64,000 bases of DNA from Dehalococcoides mccartyi 195 (GCF_000011905.1 NC_002936.3:310001-374000), one strand, 5' to 3'; shown: positions 25,508-31,646, numbered from the stretch's first letter. The notes: a model not told the origin generated them from the letters alone. A program made the numbers and translations.

Positions 25508-26938
25508 CTAGTCAAAGACCACCGGTTGCTTAGCCTTAAGCCCCATTTCGGGGGTAAGGGGGGCGGGGGTGGCCGGAGCAGTGCCTTCAACAAAGAAGGT
25601 AAAGGTCTTGCTGGTAGTGCCGGAGATAACGGTAATGGTGTGAGGTCCGGCAGTGGTGGCGGGGACATTGAATTTCAGACTGAAATCCCCGTTAGAATCA
25701 ACTATGGGGCTGGGGGTTATGGTGACCTGGGCGCTGTCAAAGGTGACCAGTACGGTATCATTGGCCTTAAGCCCCGAGCCGTTTATGGTTATTTCCTGCC
25801 CCACGTTTCCGGGGGTGGAGGCATTGTTGGTGGGGGACATGGTGATATTGGTAGTTACTGTCAGGGTGGCGGTGGAAGTAACACTGCCGTCAGTGGCGGA
25901 GATAGTGTAAGCGCCAGCCTGAACACCGGGTATTACAAAGGTGGTGGTAAAAGTGCCGTTAGACAGGGTGACGGTAACACTCTGGCCGAAGTAGGTCAGG
26001 GTAATGGTGCCGGTGGTGTTAAAACCGCTGCCCCTTACGGTAACACTGGTACCCACATTGCCGGTGTTGGGGGTTAAAGTGATTTTCTGAGCTATATCAA
26101 AAGTGACCTGAGCGTTGTTGTTCCAGGCATCATTAACTTTCAGAGTGTGTGAACCGCGGGTGAGTGCGGGTATTTCGTAAGTTGCGGTGAAACTTCCGTT
26201 TGAACCTACGGATACGCCGGCATTAACAGCCGCACCTGAATCTATAGCTATCTGAACAGCTCCGTCATAAAAACCGGTGCCGGTTATGGTTATGCTGTCA
26301 CCTACACCGGGACTGCTGGACGAGAGGGTTATCTTGGGGTTGATAATGAAGTTAACCGGTGCGGTGCCGGTAGCGCCGCCGTCATTAGCGGTTATGCTCA
26401 GAGTGCCCTTTTTGGCAGCCGGGATGGTGATAGTGGTGGAGATTGTGCCGGTGCTGCTTGAAGAGGTGGTGGCAAAGGGAGTGGTGCTGCCGGACAGATA
26501 GAAATTGACAGTGGTGCTGGGGGTAAACCCGCTGCCGGTTACGGCTACACTGTCACCCACATAACCGGTGCCGCTGGCAAGAGTTATGCTGGGGGTAATG
26601 GTAAATGCTTGAGATGCGGCACTGTCTCCCCCGGTGAAGAGGAAAGATACGGTGTAAGTACCCCGGGTAAGGTTGGTAGGTACGGTAAAGGTGCCGCTGA
26701 CTACGCCGCTGCCACCTACAGTGGCGGTGGCTACATTAGCGCCATTGAATAAAATATATACAAGTGAACCTGACGAAGCAACAGAAGTGCCTGTAACGCT
26801 TACCATTGAACCGGCCGGGCCGGAAGTGGGGGAGAGAGTGAGAGTGGCTGCCGAAACCGGGGCAAGCGGCAAGGCCGCAATCAGCAAGGCCAGGGTGGAA
26901 AACACCCCTAATACGCGAAGTAAAAATTTGTGTTTCAT
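25508..26938 (-). CDS. Secreted TIG/IPT-repeat surface protein, truncated by an in-frame amber stop
   Basis: A 476-aa protein with a clear signal peptide (hydrophobic stretch in residues 8-26, cleavage near PVSAA). Five IPT/TIG-like beta-sandwich repeats of about 80-90 residues follow, each opening with a pattern such as ITLSSSSPGVGDSITITGTG. The chain is Thr/Ser/Gly-rich with few charges, as in cell-surface proteins. It stops at a TAG inside the first strand of a sixth, FN3-like domain, losing the membrane anchor encoded downstream in frame. If real, the product would be secreted rather than anchored. A promoter-like TTGAAT-16-TATAAT lies upstream (27025-26998). Confidence 0.85.
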   Translation of the reverse strand: MKHKFLLRVLGVFSTLALLIAALPLAPVSAATLTLSPTSGPAGSMVSVTGTSVASSGSLVYILFNGANVATATVGGSGVVSGTFTVPTNLTRGTYTVSFLFTGGDSAASQAFTITPSITLASGTGYVGDSVAVTGSGFTPSTTVNFYLSGSTTPFATTSSSSTGTISTTITIPAAKKGTLSITANDGGATGTAPVNFIINPKITLSSSSPGVGDSITITGTGFYDGAVQIAIDSGAAVNAGVSVGSNGSFTATYEIPALTRGSHTLKVNDAWNNNAQVTFDIAQKITLTPNTGNVGTSVTVRGSGFNTTGTITLTYFGQSVTVTLSNGTFTTTFVIPGVQAGAYTISATDGSVTSTATLTVTTNITMSPTNNASTPGNVGQEITINGSGLKANDTVLVTFDSAQVTITPSPIVDSNGDFSLKFNVPATTAGPHTITVISGTTSKTFTFFVEGTAPATPAPLTPEMGLKAKQPVVFD

Positions 26939-27059: not shown

Positions 27060-27099
27060 ACGACAAAAAGGTCTTGAAGATATTAGAACATATGTGCTA
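27060..27099 (+). promoter_or_regulatory. Promoter and operator-like site of the left phage operon
   Basis: ACGACA (27060-27065), a 17-bp spacer and TTAGAA (27083-27088), overlaid by a 20-bp element at 27080-27099 whose core is AGAACATATGTGCT. That core is an imperfect palindrome resembling the Gram-positive LexA box (GAAC-N4-GTTC). The same element with one mismatch lies at 31626-31607 on the minus strand, in the same position relative to a -35 and -10 pair. Confidence 0.5.
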
Positions 27100-27145
27100 A
27101 ATTTAACCACGCTAAGCGCAGATTTTGCTAAAAAGGATTGGAGAG

Positions 27146-27487
27146 ATGACGCTATCAGACCATGATTTGAAAACGGAAGAAACAGATTTGCTGCCTGAAC
27201 TTACCTCATACCCTGACCAGGGTTGTGAGTTTTCAAAAACCTGTTTGGACTGTCCTCTGCCGGTGTGTGTCTTTGACCAGCCGCGCGGCCGCCAGAGGTG
27301 GCTGAAAAGGCAAAGGGATAAGGAAATAGTAAGCCTGTTTCAGGGCGGTCAGGACGAGAGGGAACTGGCAGACAGATTCCGGCTGAGTATCCGTACTATC
27401 CAGAGGGTGCTTAAGAAGAGTCTGGCCGGGGTAAATATAAATAGAAAAACGGAGGTTTTAGAAAATAGTAATGGTACAGATTTTTAA
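27146..27487 (+). CDS. Phage-cassette HTH protein with cysteine cluster
   Basis: About 113 aa from the ATG at 27146, with GGAGAG close upstream; the frame is open from 27125. The N-terminal part has a cysteine cluster CEFSKTCLDCPLPVC that could bind a metal. The C-terminal half carries a helix-turn-helix like those of sigma-factor region 4 or resolvases (DERELADRFRLSIRTIQRVL). It overlaps the truncated portal gene by 17 bp and is the first gene of the left phage operon. It may be a phage regulator or DNA-binding packaging factor; the family is not recognised. Confidence 0.7.
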   Translation: MTLSDHDLKTEETDLLPELTSYPDQGCEFSKTCLDCPLPVCVFDQPRGRQRWLKRQRDKEIVSLFQGGQDERELADRFRLSIRTIQRVLKKSLAGVNINRKTEVLENSNGTDF

Positions 27488-28382
27488 CCCGAATGAACTG
27501 AAAAGCCGTGATTTGGACAGGTTAAAAAGGTATGTAAATCTGCTGGATTTTTATCAGGGTAAACAGTGGGATGGCCGCCCGTCCCGAAATGAAAAACAGC
27601 TTACCTTCAACTATGCCAGAGTGATAGTGGACAAGCTGTGTTCATACCTGATGAGCGGGGTCAATTTCGGGGCGGAAGCTTTGAATGAAGAAGATATTGA
27701 GAAAGCGGTGACTGCCCGCTCTATGCTTAACGAAGTTTACCAGCAGAATAATCTGGAACAGCTGGACCTTGAGACTGAGATAGATTGCGCGGTACTGGGA
27801 GACGGCTGTTTCAAGGTTATCTGGGATGCAGCTTCGGGCAGGGTTAGGGTAAGTGCGCCTGATATACAGGGTATTTACGCCTGGTGGTCACCGGATGATA
27901 TGTCCCGCATCTACCGGGTGGCTTCCCGTTATGCCTTAAACAGTGAAGAAGCGGAGGTGAGCTACGGGCTGGAGCTTCCGTCCAGGCAGTCATTCCTGAC
28001 AGAGGTCTGGACAGAAGAAACCTTTGAACTCTGGCAGGATGAAAAGCTGCTTGAGAGCAAACCCAATCCTTACGGCTTTATCCCGTTTGTTATTTACCCT
28101 AATCTGCGTGAACCCAAGCGTTTCTGGGGGGTGTCTGATCTGGATGAGATTATGGAACCCCAGCGTGAGCTTAACCGCGCCTTAAGCCAGCTTTCCCGTA
28201 TTCTGGAGCTTTCGGGTAACCCGATTGCAGTGCTGGAAAATGTGGAACAGTCTGAGGATATTGCGGTGCGGCCGGGGGGCTTTACAGCTACAGTGCGGTT
28301 TCTATGGACTGCCCGGATGTATTCCGGGTGTGTTATCTGGAAAGCTATACCGGCAGTGTGGCAGATAAACGGGCATTCCTGA
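27471..28382 (+). pseudogene. Phage portal protein, truncated (N-terminal about 268 residues)
   Basis: The first about 268 codons match the N-terminal half of SPP1 gp6-like portal proteins: LLDFYQGKQWDGRPSRNEKQ, NYARVIVDKLCSYLMSG, CAVLGDGCFKVIWD, FIPFVIYPNLREP, GVSDLDEIMEPQRELNRALS. Full portals run to about 450-500 residues. After about 28275 (a GGGGGG run) the frame continues for about 35 unrelated residues that are an out-of-frame reading of the following tail-protein fragment. A deletion has therefore joined the portal to a downstream tail gene. The dodecameric portal function must be lost. Confidence 0.75.
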
Positions 28383-29533
28383 GCCATCTGGTAGCGGATA
28401 ACAGTTTTAGTGATAATATCTGGTGCGAAAGCGTGCCTACCAGCATGAGCAGTGAATTTGGCTTTGCTATGGAACATGACGGGCAGTATGTATATCTGGA
28501 CGGGGTGAACCGTATTTACCGTGCCAAAATTGCCCAGAGCAGTTTGGAAATAGGGGCAGATATACTTAAGTTTGAAACTGTCTGCGACAGCCTGAGCGGC
28601 AGTTTGACAGTAGAGCTGGATAACTCAAGCGGCCGTTATAACCGGGCGGGCAGTGGCGAGCTGGATATGCTTACCCCCGGCAGTGAAATCCAGTTTTCCC
28701 CCGGCTGCGGGACAGACAACGGTAACGAATACGGGCCGGGTCAGTTATATGTTATCCAAAGTTTGGAAAAGCGTATTTCGGGCGGTAAATCAAGCCTGTT
28801 GATACGGGCGGAGGATACTTTTTGCCGTTTGAAAAGGTGGCGGGCAACCAACCAGATGCGCTGGAACCGCAGTTCCTCTCAGCTTTCGGTCAGAGGGATA
28901 CTGGGGTATGTCTTAAGCAAAGCGGGTATCCGCATGGAAGTGCTGAGCGCATCCGCCCAGCTGGATAGTTTTTACCCGGATTTTACTATACACGTAGGTG
29001 ATGACGGGTATGAGCTGCTGGAGAAGCTGCTTAGTTTTGTGCCTGATTTGGTCTTTTTGCAGGGCCACTGCATTTACTGCGTTTATCCCCGGGAAACAGA
29101 CAGCCCGGTGTACAGTTACGGGCTTAATCACCCTGTATTCAGCGGAGTTTATGCGGATACTTTTTCCGAAGTAAACCGGGTGGTGCTGGAAGGGGTGGAT
29201 TCTTCTTCCCGTATCTTTATGGTTCAGGGCTTCCTCTGGGATGAGATTTACCAGAACCATGACCGTACTCTAAGGATTTATGACCGCAACATAAACACAC
29301 TTGCCCAGGCAAGGGAAAGGCTGGATAGCTATTTCAGAAAAGCGGCATTGAAACAGCAAACGGGGCGGATAGTGACGCCCGTAAATTGCGGGCAGCAGCT
29401 TTTTGACGTGGTAAGAATCAGCCAGCCGGAAAGCGGTCTGGAAGGGCTGGTCCGGCGCATTAACGGTATCCGTGTGGTTTACGAGCCGGGCAAAGGAATA
29501 TACCGCCAGGAATTAAGTTTGGGAAAGGTGTAA
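28256..29533 (+). pseudogene. Phage tail/baseplate-type protein, N-terminally truncated
   Basis: An open frame from 28256 (first ATG 28304) to 29533, about 410 residues. Motifs include SLSGSLTVELDNSSGRYNRA, LTPGSEIQFSPGCG, LRIYDRNINTLAQAR and RISQPESGLEGLVRRINGI. This pattern suits hub or tail proteins that define a local axis system (gp27/late-control-like), but the family call is tentative. The N-terminus is missing, because the frame is blocked by a TGA at 28253 at the portal junction. It may be expressed by reinitiation after the truncated portal or be dead. Confidence 0.6.
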
Positions 29534-29544
29534 TTAAATATAAA

Positions 29545-29757
29545 ATGGAGATAAAACGGGCAGTCCTGAAGGTTTTTAATTCTGTAGCTTATACCGCCTC
29601 TATCCAGCTGGCGGGTGATTATAAATCTATGCTGGAAGAAGTAAAAGTGGCCCGGAATATACCTGCCGCCGAAATGCTGGCCGGGCGGAATCTGGGGGTC
29701 TGGTTTTTTGATGACCACAATACCAAAGATACGCTGGTAATTGCAGTTTATTCCTAA
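29545..29757 (+). CDS. Small phage-cassette protein of unknown function
   Basis: A 70-aa protein starting MEIKRAVLKVFNSVAYTASI, with a strand-rich pattern (QLAGDYKSMLEEVKVARNI, then NLGVWFFDDHNTKDTLVIAV). It begins 11 bp after the tail-protein fragment, and the AAGGTG at the end of that gene may serve as Shine-Dalgarno. Phage tail regions of this type often carry such a small beta-rich protein downstream of the hub gene. I do not recognise the family. Confidence 0.6.
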   Translation: MEIKRAVLKVFNSVAYTASIQLAGDYKSMLEEVKVARNIPAAEMLAGRNLGVWFFDDHNTKDTLVIAVYS

Positions 29758-29793
29758 AATGGGATAGGCACGGGTTGATTGAATCCGTTTTTT

Positions 29794-29828
29794 AAGAGGT
29801 GCAGGCTGGTTTTTGGCTTGCACCTCTT
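29794..29828. terminator. Hairpin between the convergent phage operons
   Basis: AAGAGGTGCA / TGCACCTCTT, a 10-bp perfect stem extendable past one mismatch. It lies between the convergent left operon and the terminase genes. The T-run is weak on both sides. Confidence 0.55.
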
Positions 29829-29867
29829 TATTATCAGGATAAAAGGGTTTTAGGGGTGTGTTTTATC

Positions 29868-31241
29868 TCAGCTTGAGCCTTTGGCGCTTCTGGGGTGATA
29901 AGCTTCGGCTGCCTCCAGGCAGAGTGCCAGACTCATCAGGTAGTCATCGTGCCCGCGGGCGGTTTCCACATAAAAATTCATCTGCTGGCTTTGGCGGTAG
30001 TCTGCCCGTGCCAGCTCCATTTCCTGCCAGAACAGGGCATATTCGGCACTGCCGTTGGCCGCATACATCTTCAATCTGCCTGAATTTACAGCCGAAAGCA
30101 AATTAAAGCCCAGCCGTGATTTTGAAGACGGCTGGAAAACAAACGGCAGAATACGGCTGCCCAGTGATTCCCTCAGGAATGAGGCTACCGGCTGCCCTAA
30201 ACCGGTGGCATCCACGGCCACTTTGCGGCATTTCCAGACCTTGCCCAGCAGTTCCACTAGTTTTTCATAAAGCAAGGCATGGCGCGCTCCCTGCCAGCTA
30301 CAGTGGCAGACCAGCCTGACCTGAGGCAGGTTAAAGGGTGCTTTGGCAAATGTATAGTCCAGCTCCGCAATGGTAAGCACGATTGAGTCCCGCCGCAGGT
30401 TTACGGCTGTGGGCAAATCAGCGGCTGATTGTACGTCCTCACCTGCCAGGTCCAGCCCGGCTACGTACACCTTGCCATTCTCCGGGTATAACTGGCAGGG
30501 GTGGCTGCCCTTAAGCAAGCCAAGCTGTTCGCTGCTGAACATGCCCCCGCCGCCGCTTACCGGAAGCAAGCGGTACTGGGTGAGGAACAGGGGGTGATTT
30601 TCTCCCAGCCGGTCTTTTTCAGACAGGGCATAAGCCAGATAAGCCGGGTTGTGGGCGGCAACTTCTTCCCAGTCATAACGGAAATGCCGTTTCAGACCGT
30701 CCTTGTGTTCTTTTTCTATATTCTGCCTTTTTATCTCTTCCAGCAGGCTGGAGCTGTCCCAGGTAGTGCCGTACAGAACGGTGGTTACATTGGTGGTGGC
30801 ACCCATAGGTTTAAATTCCTTGCTGTACTTTTCCTGGTTTACGTCCTGGGCTTCGTCTACTTCAAGCAGCAGGTGGGCGGTATTGCCCACCACATTGGCA
30901 CTGGGTTCGGCGGAAAGAAAAACCGCTCTGGCCTGATTAAGCCTGATGATATACCCGCCTTCGGTCTGGTATATGTCTCCAAAACCGGCCTCGTTCAGGC
31001 GGTCTTTCAGTCTCATCATGGAGATATTCAGTTGAGGTTTGAAGGTAGGGGCACATTTAACCAGATTTTTGGGCTCAAACATGAAAAGAGTCAGCAGCAG
31101 AAGCTCCAGCTGAGACGAAAGCTCATTTTTCCCTCCCTGCCGGGCTATTTCCACGCTGAAGGTTTGTCCCTGCCGGTTAAATATACTCTGCAATACCGCT
31201 TTGGCAATATCCTGCTGGTAGGGGCGCAGTTTATTTATCAA
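29868..31241 (-). CDS. Phage terminase large subunit
   Basis: A 457-aa protein. The ATPase part has RQGGKNE (residues 34-40, a Walker A variant with Gly-Lys-Asn) and HLLLEVDEAQD (Walker B near 129-130). The RNase H-like nuclease part has AGLDLAGED (D264), KVAVDATGLGQP (D344) and RGHDDYLMSLAL near 438. It looks intact. In phages it cuts and pumps concatemeric DNA through the portal. Here it is on the strand opposite to the portal and tail fragments, so the module has been rearranged. It overlaps the small-subunit-like gene by 11 bp. Confidence 0.85.
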   Translation of the reverse strand: MINKLRPYQQDIAKAVLQSIFNRQGQTFSVEIARQGGKNELSSQLELLLLTLFMFEPKNLVKCAPTFKPQLNISMMRLKDRLNEAGFGDIYQTEGGYIIRLNQARAVFLSAEPSANVVGNTAHLLLEVDEAQDVNQEKYSKEFKPMGATTNVTTVLYGTTWDSSSLLEEIKRQNIEKEHKDGLKRHFRYDWEEVAAHNPAYLAYALSEKDRLGENHPLFLTQYRLLPVSGGGGMFSSEQLGLLKGSHPCQLYPENGKVYVAGLDLAGEDVQSAADLPTAVNLRRDSIVLTIAELDYTFAKAPFNLPQVRLVCHCSWQGARHALLYEKLVELLGKVWKCRKVAVDATGLGQPVASFLRESLGSRILPFVFQPSSKSRLGFNLLSAVNSGRLKMYAANGSAEYALFWQEMELARADYRQSQQMNFYVETARGHDDYLMSLALCLEAAEAYHPRSAKGSS

Positions 31242-31593
31242 AGGTAGCCTTTATAATGCCCAGCGGTACTGCCACGTCCCGCAGGACATTGAAAATAGCT
31301 TCCTTTAACCCTCCCTTGTCCTGACGGCTGATGTTATAGCGGGCAGAAAGCAGGCGTGAGAGGGTGGTTATGGCCTGCATGAGCAGTTTTAAGTTATCCG
31401 GGTCATGGCGGAGGACAGATTTTATCTTTACCCGCAGCAGGGCAATTTCTTCGTCAATGCCTTCCGCCAAAGTGGCCTGCTCATAGTCTTCCAGTTCAGC
31501 AGTATCCAGCACACGTGAATAGAAGCCGTGTTTGCGGGCATTCTGGTTGCCGTAGGGAGCGCCTTTTTTCCGTTCAACAAATTCTTGTGTCAT
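31231..31593 (-). CDS. Terminase small subunit-like protein
   Basis: About 120 aa from the ATG at 31593. KKGAPYGNQNARKHGFYSRV near the N-terminus is a common opening of phage small-terminase-like and related proteins. The rest is helical (EDYEQATLAEGIDEEIALLR...). It lies directly upstream of the large subunit and overlaps it, the usual TerS-TerL order. No Shine-Dalgarno is evident, and the start is 18 nt from the predicted transcription start. Confidence 0.72.
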   Translation of the reverse strand: MTQEFVERKKGAPYGNQNARKHGFYSRVLDTAELEDYEQATLAEGIDEEIALLRVKIKSVLRHDPDNLKLLMQAITTLSRLLSARYNISRQDKGGLKEAIFNVLRDVAVPLGIIKATFDK

Positions 31594-31606
31594 AGTGGCA
31601 AAATAA

Positions 31607-31646
31607 TAGCACAAATGTTCTAATATTAGCTATGACTATCTGTCAC
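31607..31646 (-). promoter_or_regulatory. Promoter and operator-like site of the terminase operon
   Basis: On the minus strand, GTGACA (31646-31641), a 17-bp spacer and TTAGAA (31623-31618), overlaid by a 20-bp element (31626-31607) with core AGAACATTTGTGCT. It matches 19 of 20 bases of the element at 27080-27099. Confidence 0.5.

Follow-up and report, generated by a model that had tools for sequence, protein, structure and literature searches.

The window analysed here is a stretch of 64,000 nucleotides from Dehalococcoides mccartyi 195, corresponding to bases 310,001-374,000 of a single contig of 1,469,720 bases. It contains a cassette of phage-type genes in two operons which, as a previous reading from the sequence alone had stated, converge: the left operon encodes an HTH protein, a truncated portal, a tail fragment and a 70-aa protein, and the right operon encodes the small and large terminase subunits (terS and terL). 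The features and their coordinates are collected in the table. The AlphaFold2 model of the HTH protein reached a pLDDT of ~96 across the HTH, and a Foldseek search with this model returned no match at E <=0.001; the model of the tail protein (pLDDT 54) was too poor for use. The alignment of TerS to phage profiles, starting from 73-122, indicates a small terminase without an N-terminal DNA-binding domain. The small terminases of known gene transfer agents (GTAs) likewise have no detectable DNA-binding domain (PMC11841831).

Table. Features of the two convergent operons (window coordinates).
Feature	Position	Strand	Basis or remark
GACAAAA upstream element, HTH-portal promoter; candidate activator site	27062..27068	+	24 nt before GAAC
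-35-like TTGAAG	27074..27079	+	18 bp before -10; homologous HTH promoters have TTGAC here in 16/18
LexA-type operator GAACATATGTGC, spacer of HTH-portal promoter	27086..27097	+	core matches, alignment, two-part pattern
Probable -10 TAAATT, extended by TGC	27098..27103	+	TANNNT in 64/65
HTH protein; candidate activator	27146..27487	+	invariant C27, C33, C36, C41; C-terminal HTH like Mor / sigma-70 region 4
Portal, truncated at ~residue 275, runs out of frame into tail sequence	27471..28382	+	PF05133, 2.6e-12
Large tail protein, C-terminal part (from ~residue 249 of 665)	28304..29533	+	homologue comparison, junction mapping
70-aa conserved cluster protein	29545..29757	+	conserved in relatives' clusters
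Terminase large subunit (terL)	29868..31241	-	every family-invariant residue present
Terminase small subunit (terS), short	31231..31593	-	aligns only from ~position 73-122 of phage TerS profiles
Probable -10 TATTAT, extended by TGC, terS-terL promoter	31603..31608	-	65-promoter alignment
LexA-type operator GAACATTTGTGC, terS-terL promoter	31609..31620	-	core matches, alignment, two-part pattern
GACA upstream element, terS-terL promoter	31641..31644	-	alignment, two-part pattern

The sequence-only reading had also reported that a 20-mer at the outer end of one operon recurs with one mismatch at the other, and this holds: ATATTAGAACATATGTGCTA at 27080-27099 (plus strand) and ATATTAGAACATTTGTGCTA at 31626-31607 (minus strand) differ by a single base. 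When up to two mismatches are allowed, the 14-bp core is found at no other place in the window (0.26 expected from shuffles). The entire genome has three copies of the core GAACANNTGTKC, before the left (HTH-portal) operon, before terS and before lexA. The third site lies ~20 bp upstream of the start of lexA, whose product matches TIGR00498 (NCBIfam) above cut-off; the box there is AGAACAAGTGTTCT, to which the window boxes are equal at 11 of 14 positions, their right half being GTGC rather than GTTC. Base composition alone predicts a few matches to the bare box in the genome, so that it is statistically not rare and the argument rests on positions rather than number. The weight of the box comes from where it stands, from its conservation and from its two-part promoter context, which exists at two sites in the genome, both of them here. 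The perfect GAACN4GTTC alone was dropped as a regulon marker; it has eight sites in the genome, and the close look was at the lexA site only. A one-mismatch site at genome position 70407 falls inside an apparent reading frame of mobile-element-like DNA and is probably a chance match.

GAACN4GTTC is found upstream of lexA in most genomes of the class, and in genome G001 a symmetric box lies just upstream of a Y-family polymerase operon, where the polymerase gene is followed by a DnaE-like gene. The GTGC-type box together with its -10 hexamer (GAACN4GTGCTANNNT) precedes recA in four of the 29 Chloroflexota genomes tested (G196, G093, G298 and G037), where by our rough estimate ~0.0015 matches would be expected by chance (11 fixed bases, ~6 kb). 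It is absent from most of the recA genes in these 29 genomes, and no box was found upstream of recA in the window's genome. The suggestion that the motif might also precede lexA or recA is thus borne out for lexA in this genome and, in the GTGC form, for recA in four others, and fails for the genome's own recA. Given the recA occurrences, the GTGC form itself reads as an SOS-type site. The right half-site nevertheless deviates from the LexA consensus, which counts against LexA: it is GTGC in 59 of the 65 cluster boxes and the GTTC of lexA boxes in the other six. Identical 14-mers stand at the same two genes, terS and HTH, in a different family, and conservation in other families and orders strongly supports co-regulation of both operons by one factor. 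LexA is the best candidate for this factor, because the sole third GAACANNTGTKC site precedes lexA and because four other genomes have the GTGC-type box and -10 upstream of recA. The proposal of a single repressor, perhaps LexA, is thus strongly supported.

To describe the promoters, 65 sequences upstream of terS and HTH genes were aligned on the box; two are those of the window and the other 63 come from 80 Dehalococcoidia loci. The rows were selected for GAAC and GT.C, which are invariant for that reason. These promoters share one order, GACAAAA followed by TAGAACATATGTGC and then by a -10 hexamer TANNNT. The hexamer lies directly 3' of the box in 64 of 65, GACA starts 24 or 23 nt upstream of GAAC in 63 of 65, and TTGAC is found 11-12 nt upstream of GAAC in 16 of 18 HTH promoters. 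The arrangement GACA-17 nt-TTAGAA had been read as a -35 and -10 pair; the sequence is present at both sites, but the promoter reading needs revision. Because the near-invariant TANNNT starts right after the box, TTAGAA is unlikely to be the -10, and GACA is a separate conserved element rather than its -35. The simplest reading is a TTGAC-like -35 and an extended -10 (TGC-TATTAT), separated by an 18-bp spacer that carries the operator. The operator would accordingly sit in the spacer immediately before the -10 hexamer in 64 of 65 promoters, a position that fits a block to RNA polymerase. Through the G of GTGC the extended -10 acquires its TG, a possible reason for the replacement of the T of the LexA consensus. 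GACAAAA lies ~47 bp upstream of the likely start, a typical location for an activator, and it is missing from three of the four box-bearing recA promoters, suggesting that it is linked to the cluster rather than to the SOS response. The ATG of terS follows the -10 by 9 nt, so the terS-terL mRNA may be leaderless. At many loci, L170, L177, L182 and L183 among them, the box and terS are separated by a conserved ORF of ~50 aa (MRLLRLAVExQRWDLAAHTIVLATA); it is absent in Dehalococcoides, and at other loci a hydrophobic ORF of 100-120 aa takes its place upstream of terS.

The specificity of the two-part promoter was assessed by scanning 148 Dehalococcoidia genomes with the pattern GACA-N19/20-GAACN4GTGCTANNNT and with a reversed control. 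There were 27 matches in 19 genomes and none with the control; the window's genome contributed two, both at the cassette. Most matches are upstream of terS, terL, HTH or portal genes, one is upstream of recA, and a few are unassignable or have no cluster gene nearby. A slightly wider pattern gave 73 matches in the 80 loci (1.08 Mb), all on the terL strand, again with none for the reversed control; 72 precede operons of the cluster, among them scaffold-capsid operons that stand separately in four loci, and the remaining match lies at a contig end. Since these loci were fetched around terL, the 73 matches show placement near terL and not genome-wide frequency.

In Dehalogenimonas (G003, G009, G005 and G004), near-identical terS-type promoters AAAACGACA..CGCTTGAC..GAACACGTGTGCTATAAT are scattered over the chromosomes (L311, L312, L343, L345, L346, L348-L352 and L354-L356). 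Some are upstream of additional terS genes, others apparently upstream of glyA-, ispD-, hydrolase- and GTPase-like genes. They represent a promoter repeat that has dispersed or else a regulon that has grown; their presence before unrelated genes means that the element may not be SOS-specific there. Some Dehalogenimonas (G006, G007 and G010; L044-L046) also carry a second LexA-like gene with a different palindrome-like sequence upstream, around GTAATATATTAC.

Relatives of terL were detected in 118 of 400 Chloroflexota genomes sampled at one per species, mostly as one per genome, and in 11 of 11 genomes of the family. A genome collection yielded relatives in 321 stretches; among the best 80 of these 321, all but two are titled Dehalococcoidia, its sub-groups or Chloroflexi. 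By comparison, 50,697 phage records contained six terL relatives (<=33% identity), 12 portal relatives (~25% or less) and 261 relatives of the capsid protein (all <=40%), and a close search of IMG/VR with terL found no relative. Complete clusters, such as that at L191 (~9 kb), encode in order the HTH protein, portal, a scaffold-like coiled coil, the major capsid protein, an SU10-type adaptor, a small membrane protein, a tail protein of ~665 aa, the 70-aa protein, TerS and TerL. The major capsid protein (G133 homologue) matches NF045672 above cut-off. Portal, scaffold, capsid, adaptor and tail genes are retained in related orders. Relatives have phage-derived packaging and structural genes in the host genome at L182, L191, L202 and L100 plus L120; the L191 cluster is flanked by genes for PEP carboxykinase and rubrerythrin. 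No integrase was seen in L191 or the other loci examined, and the few complete clusters inspected held no genes for lysogeny, integration or replication.

Of the 80 loci, 36 resemble the window in having a host gene of the CT398 family close to terS, and several have pheS-pheT or an S41 peptidase gene nearby; terL is conserved at ~62% against ~34% for this CT398 neighbour. A gene for a TIG/Ig-like repeat surface protein (25508-26938 in the window) adjoins the cluster in 35 of the 80 loci, often between terL and the HTH operon, and may be part of the system. In 28 genomes the terL and RecA trees have 12 of 25 bipartitions in common (random mean 0.24, maximum 3), and the terL and RecA distances correlate at 0.51, a value reached in none of 5000 permutations. 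In the terL tree Dehalogenimonas is placed apart from Dehalococcoides, which indicates that inheritance was not purely vertical. Taken together, these comparisons point to largely vertical inheritance with exceptions, as in a GTA, and identify the window cassette as an eroded copy of a widespread phage-derived cluster, often kept at one fixed chromosomal place.

The erosion is extensive. In the window copy the genes for capsid, scaffold and adaptor are absent, and the portal, up to ~residue 275, is joined to the tail from residue 249, leaving both truncated. The complete structural set of a functional prophage is thus lacking, no particle of this type is possible in the window's genome, and the copy does not by itself qualify as a GTA. 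No relative of the capsid gene was found in the three Dehalococcoides genomes, compared with its presence in 69 of 148 genomes of the class. Genome G001 has the same type of junction, at portal residue 293, and in G002 HTH and terL are both truncated while both boxes are kept. In-frame fusions occur elsewhere, portal(1-135)-tail(224-663) at L172:10038-11696 and HTH-tail at L195:6719-7453; here too the capsid genes appear to have been lost, in further lineages, while terS-terL remain. Between G000 and G001, dN/dS is 0.04 for HTH, 0.07 for terS, 0.10 for terL, 0.10 for tail and 0.09 for portal residues 1-188. The range for the cluster overall (0.04-0.13) is similar to the values for the neighbouring core genes pheS (0.06) and pheT (0.12), a pattern that shows purifying selection on the cluster genes in Dehalococcoides. 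Divergence between strains is low up to the capsid-less junction and higher beyond it. Recombination may have carried the junction from strain to strain, so dN/dS is no proof of selection after the loss of the capsid, and we dropped it as an unsafe argument for function at that stage.

The box might instead serve as an operator for the HTH protein of the cassette. This protein would then autoregulate the left operon and control terS-terL, and the likeness of the box to a LexA site would be coincidental. In support, the left operon opens with the HTH gene, the domain of its product is similar to those of late activators of phages, and both operons have the box. We nevertheless regard this as quite unlikely, as the same box and -10 precede recA in four genomes at a distance from any cluster HTH gene, a symmetric form of the box stands upstream of lexA, G002 retains both boxes alongside its truncated HTH, and the separate GACAAAA offers the protein a better candidate site. 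It also seems rather improbable to us that the shared sequence is merely a strong extended -10 promoter, conserved without any repressor. In favour of this, TGTGCTATTAT makes a good extended -10, and in Dehalogenimonas several unrelated genes have this promoter. Against it, GAAC is retained from genus to genus although sigma-70 promoters demand no particular sequence in the spacer, where it is situated; moreover, some cluster promoters have the fully symmetric GAACN4GTTC, and the box recurs at lexA and recA. An S24-type XRE repressor from a resident integrated element could bind both sites, and the genome does encode four further S24-domain proteins, three with identical scores, but their genes have no match to the box and the box is kept in many other genera, making this explanation very improbable. 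The three S24-domain repressor genes with identical scores (G000:C1:240846, 263949 and 810616) suggest three copies of one integrated element in the genome.

A different objection concerns the cassette rather than its regulator. The sequence-only reading had called it a prophage remnant, and it could be a recent prophage in simple decay, with the conservation produced by repeated infection by related phages. The truncated portal and tail, the missing capsid gene and the separate deletions in G002, L172 and L195 speak for this. The cluster nevertheless occupies a fixed place by the same host genes in many genera, the terL and RecA trees are congruent in part, very few phage records hold a related terL or portal, and dN/dS is like that of neighbouring core genes. 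We therefore think recent decay unlikely; a phage-derived and eroded origin stands, but for a member of a widespread, largely vertically inherited cluster and not for an isolated remnant.

We consider it likely, from the sequence comparisons, that the two operons belong to a LexA-controlled, GTA-like element, a domesticated phage-like cluster in which each operon has one operator in the spacer of an extended -10 promoter. LexA bound to both operators would keep RNA polymerase away, and its self-cleavage upon DNA damage would release both operons together. An activator, possibly the cluster's own Cys4-HTH protein encoded by the first gene of the left operon, may act at GACAAAA. In intact relatives from related orders, the switch would drive the full packaging module to give a damage-induced, GTA-like particle, through which we infer DNA transfer; in the window's genome an intact terminase and the operator pair remain.

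The proposed operators share with Gram-positive LexA/SOS operators (GAACN4GTTC) the left half GAAC, the 4-nt spacing and palindromic flanks. The symmetric form precedes lexA here and in most genomes of the class, and the cluster form is found before recA in other Chloroflexota. The proposed operators differ in that the right half is usually GTGC, providing the TG of the extended -10, in their location within the spacer of the promoter and in having GACAAAA as an upstream partner. Like the GTAs RcGTA, BaGTA, Dd1 and VTA, the cluster is a compact, phage-derived set of head and packaging genes with no integrase seen, largely vertical inheritance, an N-terminally short TerS and, probably, damage-linked control. 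Its phage ancestry is different (an NF045672 epsilon15 gp7-like capsid and an SPP1-like portal), and it is eroded in Dehalococcoides. Whereas its operators lie directly on the operons, the known direct activator of RcGTA is GafA (PMC6363796). Repression by the host LexA and release on DNA damage would be shared with LexA-controlled prophages, but no lysogeny, integration or replication genes were seen in the loci examined and the cluster holds a fixed chromosomal place in many genera. The HTH protein resembles the Mu Mor/C middle/late activators in its C-terminal part (PF08765, below cut-off), and the upstream element is positioned as suits an activator; unlike Mor/C, the match is limited to the HTH part and the N-terminal part is a four-cysteine stretch. 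Waller et al. are said to have reported prophage activation in a Dehalococcoides culture in 2012. A limited open-access literature search found no GTA described in Chloroflexota and no LexA regulon for Dehalococcoides.

We put forward only tentatively the wider proposal that Chloroflexota own an independently evolved, LexA-controlled GTA with an operator-in-promoter switch on every operon, and that Dehalococcoides has lost the capsid and keeps an SOS-controlled terminase for another purpose. The composite operator-promoter provides a handle that can be searched for in any Chloroflexota genome. If the proposal is true, a damage-induced, vertically kept packaging module would represent a route of gene exchange in hard-to-grow bacteria that are important for the clean-up of chlorinated solvents.
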